From SAR202 cluster bacterium bin22 (GTDB lineage: Bacteria > Chloroflexota > Dehalococcoidia > Lucifugimonadales > UBA3495), in assembly GCA_002238505.1 (NCBI GenBank), contig MPMM01000010.1, positions 62,001 to 126,000 on the forward strand: a stretch of DNA of 64,000 nt. Direction: 5' to 3'. Position 1 is the first letter of the stretch; the number at the start of each line of letters is the position of its first letter. A program made the translations under genes and the position numbers. This document shows, piece by piece, positions 54,022-60,855 of this stretch. The notes below the pieces were generated by a model that worked only from the letters and a program-made list of their open reading frames with translations, was not told the origin of the DNA and searched no databases.

Positions 54022-54280
54022 CAACTGCACTCTTTGGGATAAAATAGTAAGTAGAAGCCGATTTTACTATAAACTTCGGGGCCCCCGGTAACGCAACGGT
54101 TACGGGAATTGGGCAATCGGAAGCGCTGATAGTTTGGGCCCGCAAATCGCTGGCCATGTTTTCGGATAAACGGCATTTGTTTGGTCGGCGGGACTGGAAC
54201 CGGTTCCTTAAATTGATCCCCTTATCGGTCCTGTCGGTACCTTCAACTGAAGCAGGCATCCACTGAGAGAGGTGTTTCAA

Positions 54281-55960
54281 ATGCAAAGATTTTGGCCCAG
54301 CGTAGGGTTCGGAGCCCTTGCCGGCGCCCTGCTCTCCGCTCCGCTTCTGGGGCTGATGTACCTGGCGGACAAGTTACTGGACTTGCCCTTTGTGCCCTTT
54401 GCCCTGTTTGACTGGATTGCCACGGTTACTCCTGGCCCATTGATAACCTTCGGCATCGACATGATGATCGAGTCGTTGCTGCTGTTCAACCTGAGCGTGG
54501 CAGACGCGGCCAAGACCAGCGAGCAGATTGCGGCAGTGTTGATGGTCTTCTTCATCGGCGTGGCGGCCGGCGCCGTTCTGTTTGCGGTATTGCGGGGTCG
54601 CGGCCCCGGCGATGCAGCCTTCCAGGGCGGCTGGCTGGGCAGCATATTTTCCCAGCCGGCGCCAGGGCTGATTGTGGCTGCCGTTGTGGGTCTGCCGCTG
54701 ACCATCGTCAGCCTGCCCATGGGCCAGTCCACCATGAATCCGGTAGTAACCTTCATAGTCCTGGTTATCCTGTTTTTGGTCTGGGGCCTGGGCCTGGGCT
54801 ACCTGAGGCAGAGGCTGTCATCTGCCCAGCCCATTGCCATAGAAGGAGTTGAAGAGGAGGAGCGCTCGGTCAGCGTTATTGACCGCAGACAGTTTCTCAT
54901 TCGCCTGGGGGCCACCACCGCCACCATCACCGTGGCCAGCGCCGGCCTGGGCGCTGCCCTGGGGCAGGGGGAGCAGGCCCGCCTGGCCGAGTCGGTGGCA
55001 GACTCCATGCCTCCCGACGCCATGCCTCCCCGGCGCGCCCTGCCCAACGACGGAGACCCGGTTACCCCGGCTCCGGGCACCCGCCCCGAGTTCACGCCGG
55101 TGGAAGACCACTACCAGGTATTCCTGCGGACCGAGCCCACTTTCATTGACATTTCCAACTGGGTATTGCCCATTCACGGGGCGGTGGCCAACCCCAGGGA
55201 ACTGACCATTGAACAGATCCGCAGTGACTACCCGTCCCGGGACCAGTACGTGACCCTGTCCTGCATCTCGGGGCGCATTGGCACCACGCTGATCAGCACC
55301 ACCTGGTGGACGGGGGCCGTGCTGCAGTCGATACTGGCCGACGTGCAGCCCTTGCCCAATGCCAAGTACCTGGTCATCAAATCGGCCGACGGGTTCTACG
55401 AAACGGTAGCGCTTGACCTGATTGCGTCGGACGAACGGATAATGCTGTGTTACGCCTGGGACGGCGAAGCGCTGCCCTTCGACCACGGCTTCCCCCTGCG
55501 CATCTGGCTCCCGGACCGCTATGGAATGAAGCAGCCCAAGTGGATCGTCGACATTGAAGTGACCGACGAGTACGAGGAAGGATACTGGGTGGAACGGGGC
55601 TGGGACGAAGTCGCCCGGGTCAAGGCCACCTCGGTGATCGATACCGTCGCCGTACGAAATGTTGTGGAAGCCGACGGGCAACGCCTGGTACCCGTGGGGG
55701 GCATTGCCTTCGCCGGCGCCCGGGGCATTTCCGGGGTGCAGGTACGGGTGGACGGCGGTCCCTGGCAGGACGCCCAGTTGAGATCGCCCCTTTCTGAAAC
55801 CACGTGGGTCATCTGGCGGTACGACTGGCCTTTCGCAGCGGGCGACCACACCTTCGAGGTTAGGTGCGCGGAAGCTGACGGCACTCCCCAAATCGAGGAG
55901 GAACAGGGCAACCGACCCAGCGGCGCCACGGGCATTCACAACAGGAAGGCCAGCCTGTAG
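54281..55960 (+). CDS. Membrane-anchored molybdopterin oxidoreductase (sulfite oxidase/YedY-like)
   Basis: A 559-residue protein from ATG 54281 (GAGAGAGG about eight nt upstream; an in-frame GTG at 54272 is possible). The first 180 residues form about five hydrophobic helices. A twin-arginine-like segment (DRRQFLIRLGATTATIT) sits at the junction, so the enzyme domain is probably exported. Residues about 270-440 resemble the SUOX/YedY molybdopterin domain, with the molybdenum-ligand Cys in TLSCISG and the landmarks WWTGAVL and GFPLRIWLPDRYG. A C-terminal Mo-co dimerisation-like domain follows. Substrate may be a sulfoxide or sulfite; heme partner genes are not adjacent. Confidence 0.85.
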   Translation: MQRFWPSVGFGALAGALLSAPLLGLMYLADKLLDLPFVPFALFDWIATVTPGPLITFGIDMMIESLLLFNLSVADAAKTSEQIAAVLMVFFIGVAAGAVLFAVLRGRGPGDAAFQGGWLGSIFSQPAPGLIVAAVVGLPLTIVSLPMGQSTMNPVVTFIVLVILFLVWGLGLGYLRQRLSSAQPIAIEGVEEEERSVSVIDRRQFLIRLGATTATITVASAGLGAALGQGEQARLAESVADSMPPDAMPPRRALPNDGDPVTPAPGTRPEFTPVEDHYQVFLRTEPTFIDISNWVLPIHGAVANPRELTIEQIRSDYPSRDQYVTLSCISGRIGTTLISTTWWTGAVLQSILADVQPLPNAKYLVIKSADGFYETVALDLIASDERIMLCYAWDGEALPFDHGFPLRIWLPDRYGMKQPKWIVDIEVTDEYEEGYWVERGWDEVARVKATSVIDTVAVRNVVEADGQRLVPVGGIAFAGARGISGVQVRVDGGPWQDAQLRSPLSETTWVIWRYDWPFAAGDHTFEVRCAEADGTPQIEEEQGNRPSGATGIHNRKASL

Positions 55961-57341: not shown

Positions 57342-58286
57342 ATGGCAGAAGTTTTCGGGCATGGAGACTTTCAATATACCTTTGTGGAAGACTGGGTAAA
57401 GCTGCCCGACGGCAAGCGCCTGCTGGAATGTCCTGGCGTGGTCTGCGATTCGGAAGACCGGGTGTTCATACTCACCCGGGGCGAAGACCCAATCATGGTC
57501 TTTGACAAGGACGGCAACTTCCTCCGCTCCTTCGGCCAGGGGTTGTTCAGCAACCGAACCCACGGCCTCTACATCGCCCACGACGATTCCATCCTGGCCG
57601 CCGATGACGGCATCCATACCATCCAGAAGTTCACTCCCAATGGCGAAAAGGTGATGGAGATCGGCGAGCGTAACCATCCCGCGCCCCGCTGGAGCGGCCA
57701 GCCCTTCAACCGGCCCACCTCCGCCGCCATCCGCCCGGCCAACGGCGACATCTACATCTCCGACGGCTACGGCAACTCCCGCATCCACTGCTACACAGGC
57801 GACGGCGAGTACAAGTTCAGCTGGGGCGAGCCGGGCATTGACGCCGGCCAGTTCATTCGTCCCCACAATATTGCCGTGGACGGCGATGACCGGATCCTGG
57901 TTGTGGACCGGGAAGCACACCGGGTCCAGATATTCGATCCGGAAGGTGGCTTCATCACCATGTGGAGCAACATCCACCGCCCCGACGCCATGGTGCTTTG
58001 GCAGGACAATATCTATATCGGTGAACTGAACGGCATGGGCGGAGTGGACGACGCTCCCGGCCTGGGCCACCGCGTAACCATCTACGACCTTGAAGGCAAT
58101 CGCGTGGGCCTGTTCGGGTCCAAGGATGAGGGCGAGGGCGCTGGCGAGTTCATCGCCCCCCACGGCATAGCAGTGGACTCCACCGGCGCGGTGTACGTGT
58201 CGGAAGTGTCCTACACCATCCGCGGCTCCCACATGGACCCACCCCGGGAATTGCGCAGCTTCTCCAAGTACGAACGGGTTAGGTAG
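57342..58286 (+). CDS. NHL-repeat/6-bladed beta-propeller protein (PAL-like)
   Basis: A 314-residue propeller without a signal peptide. Repeated strands include GVVCDSEDRVFILTR, GLYIAHDDSILAADDG, AAIRPANGDIYISDGYGNSRIHCY, NIAVDGDDRILVVDREAHRVQIF and GIAVDSTGAVYVSEVSY. The pattern matches the peptidyl-alpha-hydroxyglycine amidating lyase-like (NHL/SMP-30) group. Several of these are lactonases or Ca-binding enzymes; the catalytic role is not certain. GAGGAGGAG precedes the ATG. It follows the two VOC genes and could act in the same pathway. Confidence 0.85.
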   Translation: MAEVFGHGDFQYTFVEDWVKLPDGKRLLECPGVVCDSEDRVFILTRGEDPIMVFDKDGNFLRSFGQGLFSNRTHGLYIAHDDSILAADDGIHTIQKFTPNGEKVMEIGERNHPAPRWSGQPFNRPTSAAIRPANGDIYISDGYGNSRIHCYTGDGEYKFSWGEPGIDAGQFIRPHNIAVDGDDRILVVDREAHRVQIFDPEGGFITMWSNIHRPDAMVLWQDNIYIGELNGMGGVDDAPGLGHRVTIYDLEGNRVGLFGSKDEGEGAGEFIAPHGIAVDSTGAVYVSEVSYTIRGSHMDPPRELRSFSKYERVR

Positions 58287-59197: not shown

Positions 59198-60253
59198 TTG
59201 ACCCAAGAAACCACCACCGCAGCATGGAACGACATTTTTGGAGCCGTTGAAGCCCTGTATGACCTGGGCTGGACTGATGGTCTGCCCGTGCTGCCGCCCA
59301 CGGCCGACAAGGTCGCCGAGTTCCTGGCCGCCGGCGGGCGCCAGGGCTCCGAAATTGTCGGTGAGCTGCCCGAACGACGCAGGGAGATAACCGCCGAGAA
59401 GGTAGCCGCCAATGCGGTGATGGCCGGCTGCAGGCCCGAGTATATGCCGGTGGTACTGGCGGCGGCCGAGGCCATGCTGGCGCCGTCCTTTAACCTGGTA
59501 GGCCCCTCCTCCAGCATGGGCGGGGCCGCCGTACTGGCAATCATCAACGGGCCGATCGTCCAGGAACTGGGCATTAATTCCCGCAACAACCTCTTTGGCC
59601 CCGGCAACCGGGCCAATTCCACCATCGGCCGGGCCGTCCGGCTTATCCTGATGAATGCCTGCGCCGCCATTCCCGGCCTTTACGACCGCAGCGTTATCGG
59701 CCACCCGGGCAAGTTCAGCTACTGCATCGCCGAGGCGGAGACGGAGACCCACTGGACTCCCCTGCACGTGGAACGGGGCTTTGCCGCCGACCAGAGCGCG
59801 GTTACTGTCTTTGCTTCCGAAGCGCCGCGACAGGTACGCTCGGTGGGCCATCCGGAAGCCATCCTCTACGCCATAGCCGACGTGGCCTCATCCCTGGGAA
59901 CGTCCCTGTCCACCTCAGGTTCCGTGGGCGACCCGGCGGCAGGCATCCGGCAGGGGGAAACGGTGGTCACCATCGCCGGGAACAGCGGCCTGTGGAAGGA
60001 TTGGACCAAGGCCGGCGTAAAGGAATTCCTTCACTCCCGAATCCAGCGGTCGGTGGCCGATTTCAAGCGGGCGAGGGTGTTCCCCGGGGATCTGGAACCC
60101 GGAGACGAGGAGCGGATGGTACCCCTGACTGCCTCCCCAGAAGATATTCTGGTAGTATTTGCCGGAGGCGAGGAGTCCAACATGTCCTCGGTAATTCCCA
60201 GTTGGGGCCCCAAGGTCGGGTCTACCTCGGTCACCAAAGAAGTGCGCCGGTAG
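59198..60253 (+). CDS. Conserved-looking partner of the UGSC selenoprotein (unknown function)
   Basis: A 351-residue protein without a signal peptide or membrane segment, starting at TTG 59198 with GAGGAGA six nt upstream. It has compact conserved-looking motifs: LGWTDGLPVLPPT, ANAVMAGCRPEYMPVVLAA, NSRNNLFGPGNRANSTIGRAVRL and GHPGKFSYCIAE, with two or three Cys (one in MAGC, one in NACAA, one in SYC). I do not recognise the fold. It is followed 71 nt later by the UGSC gene. The arrangement suggests a two-component enzyme in which the selenoprotein is the small redox subunit; this is inference. Confidence 0.7.
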   Translation: MTQETTTAAWNDIFGAVEALYDLGWTDGLPVLPPTADKVAEFLAAGGRQGSEIVGELPERRREITAEKVAANAVMAGCRPEYMPVVLAAAEAMLAPSFNLVGPSSSMGGAAVLAIINGPIVQELGINSRNNLFGPGNRANSTIGRAVRLILMNACAAIPGLYDRSVIGHPGKFSYCIAEAETETHWTPLHVERGFAADQSAVTVFASEAPRQVRSVGHPEAILYAIADVASSLGTSLSTSGSVGDPAAGIRQGETVVTIAGNSGLWKDWTKAGVKEFLHSRIQRSVADFKRARVFPGDLEPGDEERMVPLTASPEDILVVFAGGEESNMSSVIPSWGPKVGSTSVTKEVRR

Positions 60254-60274: not shown

Positions 60275-60302
60275 CTTAGTGAACATTCGTGTCTATTCGT
60301 GG
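60275..60302. repeat. Dispersed repeat (ATTCGTG type) upstream of the UGSC gene
   Basis: CTTAGTGAACATTCGTGTCT followed by ATTCGTGG. It is the same element family as the palindrome at 60882-60937 on the other side of the gene (TTAGTGAA...ATTCGTG). Confidence 0.65.
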
Positions 60303-60324
60303 AAAAGAAACGGGAGGAGGGAAT

Positions 60325-60855
60325 ATGAGCGAATACACCCTGATAAATCCTACCACTGAGCCGGTAACGCCGCCCTTCGACGGCGCTCCCCGCCTGCCCA
60401 CCATGGCCGGCGCCAAAGTGGGCATCATTGACGACAGCAAACGCAACGCCGACGTGCTGCTGGAGGAACTGGCGGAAGTGCTGCGGACCCGCTACGAAAT
60501 TAGCGACGTTCAATGGCACCGCAAGCCCAGCGCTTCCAGGCCCGCCGACCCGGCGGCCATCGCGGCCCTGGCCACCGACTGTGACGCGGTGGTCATTGCC
60601 ATCGGCGATTGAGGGTCCTGCAGCGCGTGCAGTGTGCACGACGGGATTCACGTGGAAAAGGCGGGATTGCCTTCAGCCACCATCTGCACCGACCGGTTCA
60701 TCCCCACCGCCAGGGGCATGGCCAAGATGTGGGGAGCCGCCGACTACCCCACCATTTTCACCGAGCACCCAATCGAGAACCTGGACCGCTGGCAACTGCG
60801 GGAACGGGCAGAGGGATTGGCGACCGAGGTGGTGACGATACTGACGGGGAGTTAG
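60325..60855 (+). CDS. UGSC-family selenoprotein (in-frame TGA = selenocysteine)
   Basis: The gene runs from ATG 60325 (GGGAGGAGGG upstream) to TAG 60855 and encodes 176 residues with one in-frame TGA at 60610-60612, codon 96. The local sequence AIGD-U-GSC-SAC-SVHDGIHVE is the hallmark of the UGSC family, where the first residue of the motif is Sec or Cys. Residues 99 and 102 are Cys. The N-terminal half (GAKVGIIDDSKRN, VLLEELAEVLRT, DAVVIAIGD) has a Rossmann-like beta-alpha pattern. The frame is unbroken by indels, so readthrough is more likely than a pseudogene. Function is unknown but thiol/selenol redox chemistry is expected. selA, selB, selC and selD are not in the window. Confidence 0.85.
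60616..60646 (+). promoter_or_regulatory. Candidate bacterial SECIS hairpin
   Basis: Directly after the TGA (60610-60612), an upper stem CGTGCA (60626-60631) and TGCACG (60635-60640) closes a GTG loop. A lower stem TCCT (60616-60619) and GGGA (60643-60646) can form around an internal loop. The loop G lies about 20 nt past the UGA, within the usual bacterial SECIS distance. Folding was done by eye. Confidence 0.55.

Follow-up and report, generated by a model that had tools for sequence, protein, structure and literature searches.

A UGSC-family selenoprotein and its partner protein in a SAR202 cluster bacterium: a candidate two-subunit selenoenzyme

Introduction

UGSC is among the most abundant selenoprotein families of the Global Ocean Sampling (GOS) survey, with 255 genes, and is the most frequent one in the non-marine GOS samples (PMC2398784). 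A thioredoxin-like fold has been given as predicted or likely for it in the GOS paper (PMC2398784) and in a 2026 review (PMC13188914). UGSC/Unknown_1 fusions were already seen in that survey in 2008 (PMC2398784). The family is functionally undescribed, as a preliminary description of the present DNA rightly stated.

Several known systems can be compared with UGSC. In PrdB (TIGR04483) and PrdB-like marine selenoproteins, a small selenocysteine (Sec) subunit with a UxxC motif is combined with a second subunit, which in D-proline reductase is of the pyruvoyl-bearing PrdA type. GrdB (PF07355/TIGR01917) is selenoprotein B of glycine reductase, and selenoproteins with a thioredoxin fold (thioredoxin-like and peroxiredoxin-like) carry UxxC at the N-terminus of a helix. 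For the SECIS element that directs decoding in bacteria, the published model has a loop of 3-9 nt, a stem of 4-16 bp, a distance of 16-37 nt from the UGA and a G within the first two loop positions (PMC13188914).

Here we describe a UGSC locus in a stretch of 64,000 nucleotides from SAR202 cluster bacterium bin22 (the window), whose assembly comprises 4.39 Mb and is 97% complete. The gene is a new member of an already known family, and what is new lies at the level of the system: a partner protein family, a covarying SECIS hairpin and a relationship of UGSC to GrdB and PrdB. These three points go beyond the preliminary description, and we found no earlier account of them together in the literature, where our coverage of papers on selenoprotein neighbourhoods is incomplete. 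Compared with the published work on UGSC (PMC2398784, PMC13188914), the partner family is now named, the SECIS is defined and the structural model is flavodoxin-like.

The UGSC gene

The gene and its Sec codon are located as follows.

60325..60855, + strand: gene for a UGSC-family selenoprotein of 176 aa (Sec96 counted), ATG start, TAG stop
60610..60612, + strand: Sec96 codon, in-frame TGA at codon 96, evidently read as selenocysteine

The frame contains exactly one internal stop, the TGA itself, and the residues around codon 96 read ...AIGD-U-GSCSAC-SVHD..., with the UGSC motif at positions 96-99. A good to strong Shine-Dalgarno sequence, GGAGGAGG, lies 5' of the ATG. Standard ORF calling ends at the TGA and yields a 107-aa ORF at 60289-60612, so that gene callers do cut the gene short, as had been expected. 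With U at codon 96, the product scores above the cut-offs of both family models, NF041046 ‘UGSC family (seleno)protein’ (148.9 bits, cut-off 125) and PF24696 ‘UGSC’ (188.8 bits, cut-off 25). When frame, TGA and family scores were re-derived, the coordinates, codon number and family name of the preliminary description all proved right. Its proposed hallmark, U-G-S-C-S-A-C, holds in part. The motif is present, but its invariant portion is U-x-x-C, and all of 75 aligned members have U or C at the Sec site; the third Cys is found in the window's own clade, while many relatives have W, G or S there.

Selenocysteine decoding

The genome that contains the window also encodes SelA (541.7 bits), SelB (348.3 bits) and a Sec-type SelD (385.6 bits), and a tRNA-Sec with anticodon UCA is called in it; thus all four components that the preliminary description had proposed to look for were found. 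The SelD gene (C57:40142-41065) has an in-frame TGA of its own. The genome has UGSC genes at four places, and all four contain a single TGA. When 393 genomes belonging to this class were searched, UGSC was found in 131, and every UGSC match among the matches listed has one internal TGA. SelA occurs in 121 of these 131 genomes versus 134 of the 262 others; several of the UGSC genomes that lack it are incomplete assemblies or have weak UGSC matches.

The TGA lies at the same codon across dozens of genera. Homologues without it have Cys instead, as seen in fetched loci and plasmids of Natrialba, Natrinema, Halalkalicoccus, Luminiphilus, Mycobacterium gordonae, Nakamurella, Variovorax, Roseovarius, Arthrobacter and Embleya; six plasmid records carry Cys at the Sec position. 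The only exceptions to the Sec/Cys rule are two diverged fusion proteins with Met, from Vibrio europaeus and Sporomusa termitida. SelA is above the cut-off in M. gordonae and Nakamurella, and not in Natrialba and Luminiphilus; the first two thus indicate that the Cys form of UGSC does not require loss of the Sec machinery.

The homologues do not end at the TGA, an outcome that the preliminary description had named as evidence against its reading: conserved sequence continues beyond it. Six close orthologues were compared with the window gene after the TGA. Five of them share 82-93% of the bases at the first and second codon positions and 51-62% at the third; in the sixth, which is more diverged, the values are 71/78/51% for positions 1/2/3. 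Stronger conservation of the first two positions than of the third implies that the part after the TGA is selected as protein. The window has 26 long ORFs (non-overlapping, >300 codons, taken without individual curation), of which 11 end in TGA; the codon is thus an ordinary stop here rather than a reassigned codon.

These observations bear on the simplest alternative, that the TGA is a premature stop in a pseudogene, a sequencing or assembly error, or a codon for some other amino acid. An error or a decayed gene does not fit a TGA shared by dozens of genera, purifying selection downstream and the covarying hairpin described below, and another amino acid does not fit Cys, rather than Trp, in all TGA-less homologues bar the two Met fusions, or the use of TGA as a normal stop. 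We consider this alternative refuted by the sequence, with a practically negligible chance of being right, and decoding of the UGA as Sec is virtually certain.

The SECIS hairpin

A hairpin follows the Sec codon closely.

60626..60640, + strand: bacterial SECIS hairpin, 6-bp stem CGUGCA/UGCACG, GUG loop at 60632-60634, 19 nt after the UGA

Comparison of 12 close orthologues gives 61 degenerate codons whose amino acid is invariant, and just seven of these are also invariant as codons. Six of the seven are contiguous, +5 to +10 after the Sec codon, and spell out CGUGCA-GUG-UGCACG. In an alignment of 73 distinct sequences, the six pairs are formed in 97.7% of cells, compared with 84.5% in shuffles, double-sided changes number 37 (8.6 in shuffles), and C-G/G-C swaps are present in 17 sequences. 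The covariation score of 0.328 (0.109 in shuffles) is reached by none of 500 shuffles, where the relatedness of the sequences means that shuffle counts are not strict probabilities; slid controls collapse. Nearly all sequences have G at the start of the loop.

Unusually stable local folding, relative to synonymous shuffles, is confined to the hairpin site (mean z -1.18); the overlapping +4 window gives -0.75, and other positions lie at about -0.4 to +0.5. The hairpin of the window agrees with the published bacterial SECIS model in spacing, stem, loop and G. Single-sequence folding of the region is uninformative (z 0.24 for the window and 0.76 for L002, the latter on a stretch outside the hairpin), so that the element is revealed only by comparison of many species. 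A search of the region against Rfam gave no match.

The partner gene

Directly upstream of the UGSC gene is a second gene on the same strand.

59198..60253, + strand: partner gene, 351 aa, TTG start

The partner has no match in Pfam or NCBIfam, and neither do 75 of its relatives apart from isolated weak hits. By sequence it has no match in the PDB; neither the partner nor UGSC yielded anything usable there when used as query in phmmer or profile searches. Its most conserved residues include W25, D27, G28, P30, N72, A76, G77 and C78, followed by G118, N140, G144, R145, C176, E179 and W186. The AlphaFold2 model of the partner (mean pLDDT 92.0, pTM 0.92) has no convincing relative among PDB structures in Foldseek or VIA. 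We rejected as noise the Foldseek rows (TM-scores 0.27-0.32), which have the alpha chain of a two-subunit class I fumarase at the top (E 3e-4) and Toblerone cyclic amide hydrolases after it, and likewise the VIA rows, a tubulin C-terminal domain and chorismate mutase, whose Z does not exceed 6.3.

Exactly four partner copies are present in the genome, each linked or fused to a different one of its UGSC genes. The window copy lies upstream of UGSC; of the others, one follows UGSC directly, one follows it after an intervening gene, and one forms a single 573-aa frame with it that contains one TGA. The order of the pair varies, with either gene first, and fusions of ~525-575 aa occur in this genome, Burkholderiales and Rokubacteria. 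With the partner alone as query, 80 loci were fetched from 11.3 million contigs, covering Chloroflexota, Proteobacteria, Rokubacteria, Binatia, Acidobacteria, Actinobacteria, Nitrospinota and haloarchaea. UGSC is present at 74 of them, nearly always within about 1.3 kb, and four of the remaining six are at a contig edge. The other two, L039 and L050, have full flanks and no UGSC domain in about 11 kb; these may be orphan partners, or a distant UGSC may act in trans. In the 393 class genomes, UGSC is found in 131, the partner in 129 and both in 125, compared with 43 expected (Fisher 2.6e-89, uncorrected for phylogeny). Linkage, fusion and co-occurrence make it very probable that UGSC and the partner are a functional unit. 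The Unknown_1 part of the GOS fusions is probably of the same family as the partner.

The two Met fusions are on plasmids (Vibrio europaeus, L123:7368-9050; Sporomusa termitida, L124:7320-9041). In both, Sec is replaced by Met and the Cys of UxxC by Ser, the partner half keeps its conserved Cys, and aconitase X and DUF126 genes are nearby. We offer the reading that they represent a redox-dead or repurposed branch of UGSC-partner proteins.

Fold and relatives of UGSC

Part of the UGSC family matches curated glycine and proline reductase models in their Sec region. Out of 75 members, 24 match the GrdB model TIGR01917 (best 5.8e-7), 13 match TIGR01918, 12 GrdF, 8 GrdH and 3 PrdB, all far below the curated cut-offs; the window protein has 21.5 bits for TIGR01918 (cut-off 65.45) and 20.2 for TIGR01917 (cut-off 602.2). 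Profile-profile alignment with hhalign places Sec on Sec, with pairwise E-values of 1e-5 for PrdB-like and 4.6e-4 for GrdB proteins; both sets came from genomes of this bacterial class. Besides the aligned Sec, UGSC has in common with GrdB the pattern E-x-x-G-[IVL]-P after it and, in the window copy, UxxCxxC. From these alignments, UGSC is likely to be a distant homologue of the Sec region of GrdB and PrdB.

There are also clear differences. Unlike GrdB, UGSC is a stand-alone domain of 176 aa with a different partner, one that has no detectable similarity to GrdB, and no match to GrdA (PF04723) is found in this 97% complete assembly. GrdA is above the cut-off in 6 of 100 class genomes, two of which carry UGSC. 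With PrdB, UGSC shares the plan of a small UxxC-bearing Sec subunit plus a second subunit, but its taxonomic range is much wider than that of D-proline reductase PrdB and includes haloarchaea; its partner has conserved Cys78 and Cys176. Two further PrdB/GrdB-like genes with in-frame TGA are present in the same genome (C53:154886-155524 and C39:37198-37761).

In the AlphaFold2 model of UGSC (mean pLDDT 94.9), five strands alternate strictly with helices, and Sec96 lies where strand 3 gives way to the next helix. Structures that match the model have flavodoxin-like, receiver or lumazine-synthase folds (highest Z 11); thioredoxin is not among the matches listed, and none of the 75 members has a thioredoxin Pfam match. 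UGSC resembles thioredoxin-fold selenoproteins in having UxxC at a helix N-terminus, but differs in model topology and in sequence relatives. The model thus argues for a flavodoxin-like fold rather than the published thioredoxin-like one.

Gene neighbourhoods

Thioredoxin reductase genes lie near the pair in a handful of mostly cultured genomes; the window has none. In an Arthrobacter plasmid, trxB, trxA, partner and UGSC are consecutive, whereas trxB is directly downstream of the pair in a Roseovarius plasmid and three genes upstream in a Variovorax plasmid. In Sheuella amnicola, a transporter-receptor-like gene is followed by the partner, UGSC(Sec), LysR-like and TrxR-like genes, and finally selB. 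On plasmid pBEN of Paracoccus versutus, a region of about 20 kb combines UGSC(Sec) and its partner with two trxB-like genes and both selA and selB. This conjugative plasmid region (L155, pBEN 1721000-1741000) is apparently a mobile selenocysteine island. The sel genes beside UGSC(Sec) in Sheuella and Paracoccus also speak for Sec decoding. On another conjugative plasmid, the IncP plasmid p2-T1 of Acidovorax sp. T1 (L119), UGSC(Sec) and partner are downstream of IS1071 and ISPps1 transposases, amid catabolic-looking genes, and are absent as whole genes from the gene table of the record.

Among the genes that recur near the pair, tripartite tricarboxylate transporter receptors are found at 12 loci, CoA-transferase family III at 11 and luciferase-like monooxygenases at 8. 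Other copies adjoin TRAP transporters and further catabolic genes, some are next to aconitase X and DUF126 genes, and an AhpC/TSA-type redoxin gene is near several close orthologues. Some genomes have nine or more UGSC-partner paralogues. Such variety in the neighbourhoods does not single out a substrate. One neighbour recurs within the window's own clade and is a candidate associate.

57342..58286, + strand: NHL-repeat beta-propeller protein gene

Relatives of this protein are encoded near the partner in 13 other loci. Upstream of the cluster, the window also has a membrane-anchored molybdopterin oxidoreductase of sulfite-oxidase type (54272-55960); a member of the same ORF cluster is near the partner in four other loci.

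Discussion

The selenocysteine and the two-gene unit come out of the sequence comparisons; for the chemistry and the substrate class we infer the following. As the best overall explanation (a probability of roughly 0.55), the pair would be a Sec-containing, GrdB/PrdB-like reductase of two subunits, independent of GrdA. UGSC and partner would form one soluble enzyme in which UGSC, a flavodoxin-like alpha/beta domain whose Sec opens the helix following strand 3, acts as selenol subunit. Its selenolate would attack a substrate held mainly by the partner, and the resulting Se-adduct or selenenyl-sulfide would be resolved by the Cys of U-x-x-C. UGSC would then be recharged by thioredoxin and thioredoxin reductase. 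GrdA would not be required, and no carboxymethyl-selenoether would be handed on; by analogy, PrdB rather than glycine reductase should be the closest mechanistic model. The trxB neighbours, the recurrent neighbouring genes and the absence of GrdA all point to a two-subunit, thioredoxin-recharged selenol reductase, and we regard recharging of a GrdB/PrdB-like reductase by thioredoxin as an evenly balanced call. The substrates may differ from one paralogue to another and be small organic acids or catabolic intermediates related to them, as suggested by copies beside tricarboxylate-type and TRAP transporters, CoA-transferases and catabolic genes; an organic-acid type of substrate is possible, if somewhat doubtful. 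The Met/Ser fusions count against the redox model, being a version of the protein that has no U-x-x-C redox centre. Against the model also stand the small number of genomes with a nearby thioredoxin reductase gene, the GrdB/PrdB matches far under their cut-offs and the dissimilarity of partner and GrdB.

Other functions for the pair must be weighed against this one. A non-reductive enzyme (lyase, isomerase or hydrolase), with Sec as nucleophile or metal ligand, would agree with the fumarase and Toblerone hydrolase rows at the top of the Foldseek output for the partner, with the aconitase X and DUF126 genes beside some copies, and with the retention of the partner in some fusions that have neither Sec nor Cys. 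Those structural scores, like the VIA values, are within noise, however, and the near-universal U or C in a UxxC motif, together with the trxB neighbours, points to redox chemistry instead, so that we judge this function unlikely. Somewhat less likely again is that UGSC is a thioredoxin-like thiol/selenol-disulfide oxidoreductase acting on proteins or peroxides, with the partner as a co-regulated client or chaperone. The UxxC motif, the published fold assignments (PMC2398784, PMC13188914) and the redoxin gene near several close orthologues speak for such a role, but the confidently predicted topology with Sec after the third strand, the flavodoxin-like matches, the lack of any thioredoxin Pfam match among the 75 members and the GrdB/PrdB kinship do not. 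That kinship would also suit a true glycine-reductase module, in which UGSC takes the place of GrdB and transfers a Se-carboxymethyl group to GrdA. With GrdA missing from the genome and rare in the class, we reject glycine reductase proper as very improbable.

Returning to the two-subunit reductase, we tentatively propose that the pair represents a new class of soluble, GrdA-independent selenoenzymes with GrdB/PrdB-type selenol chemistry and recharging by thioredoxin, widespread in bacteria and present in Cys form in haloarchaea, whose paralogues reduce different organic acids or xenobiotic intermediates. A selenoprotein family without an assigned role thereby gains a concrete, testable hypothesis of function, and the partner adds an entire protein family without annotation. 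The near-obligate partner, the relation to glycine and proline reductases and the trxB genes of cultured organisms make of this orphan family a system open to expression and assay. Work without expression of Sec is possible with the naturally fused proteins and with the Cys forms of haloarchaea and actinobacteria that can be cultivated. Finally, mobile copies with their own selA and selB suggest that the capacity to encode Sec can travel along with the enzyme.
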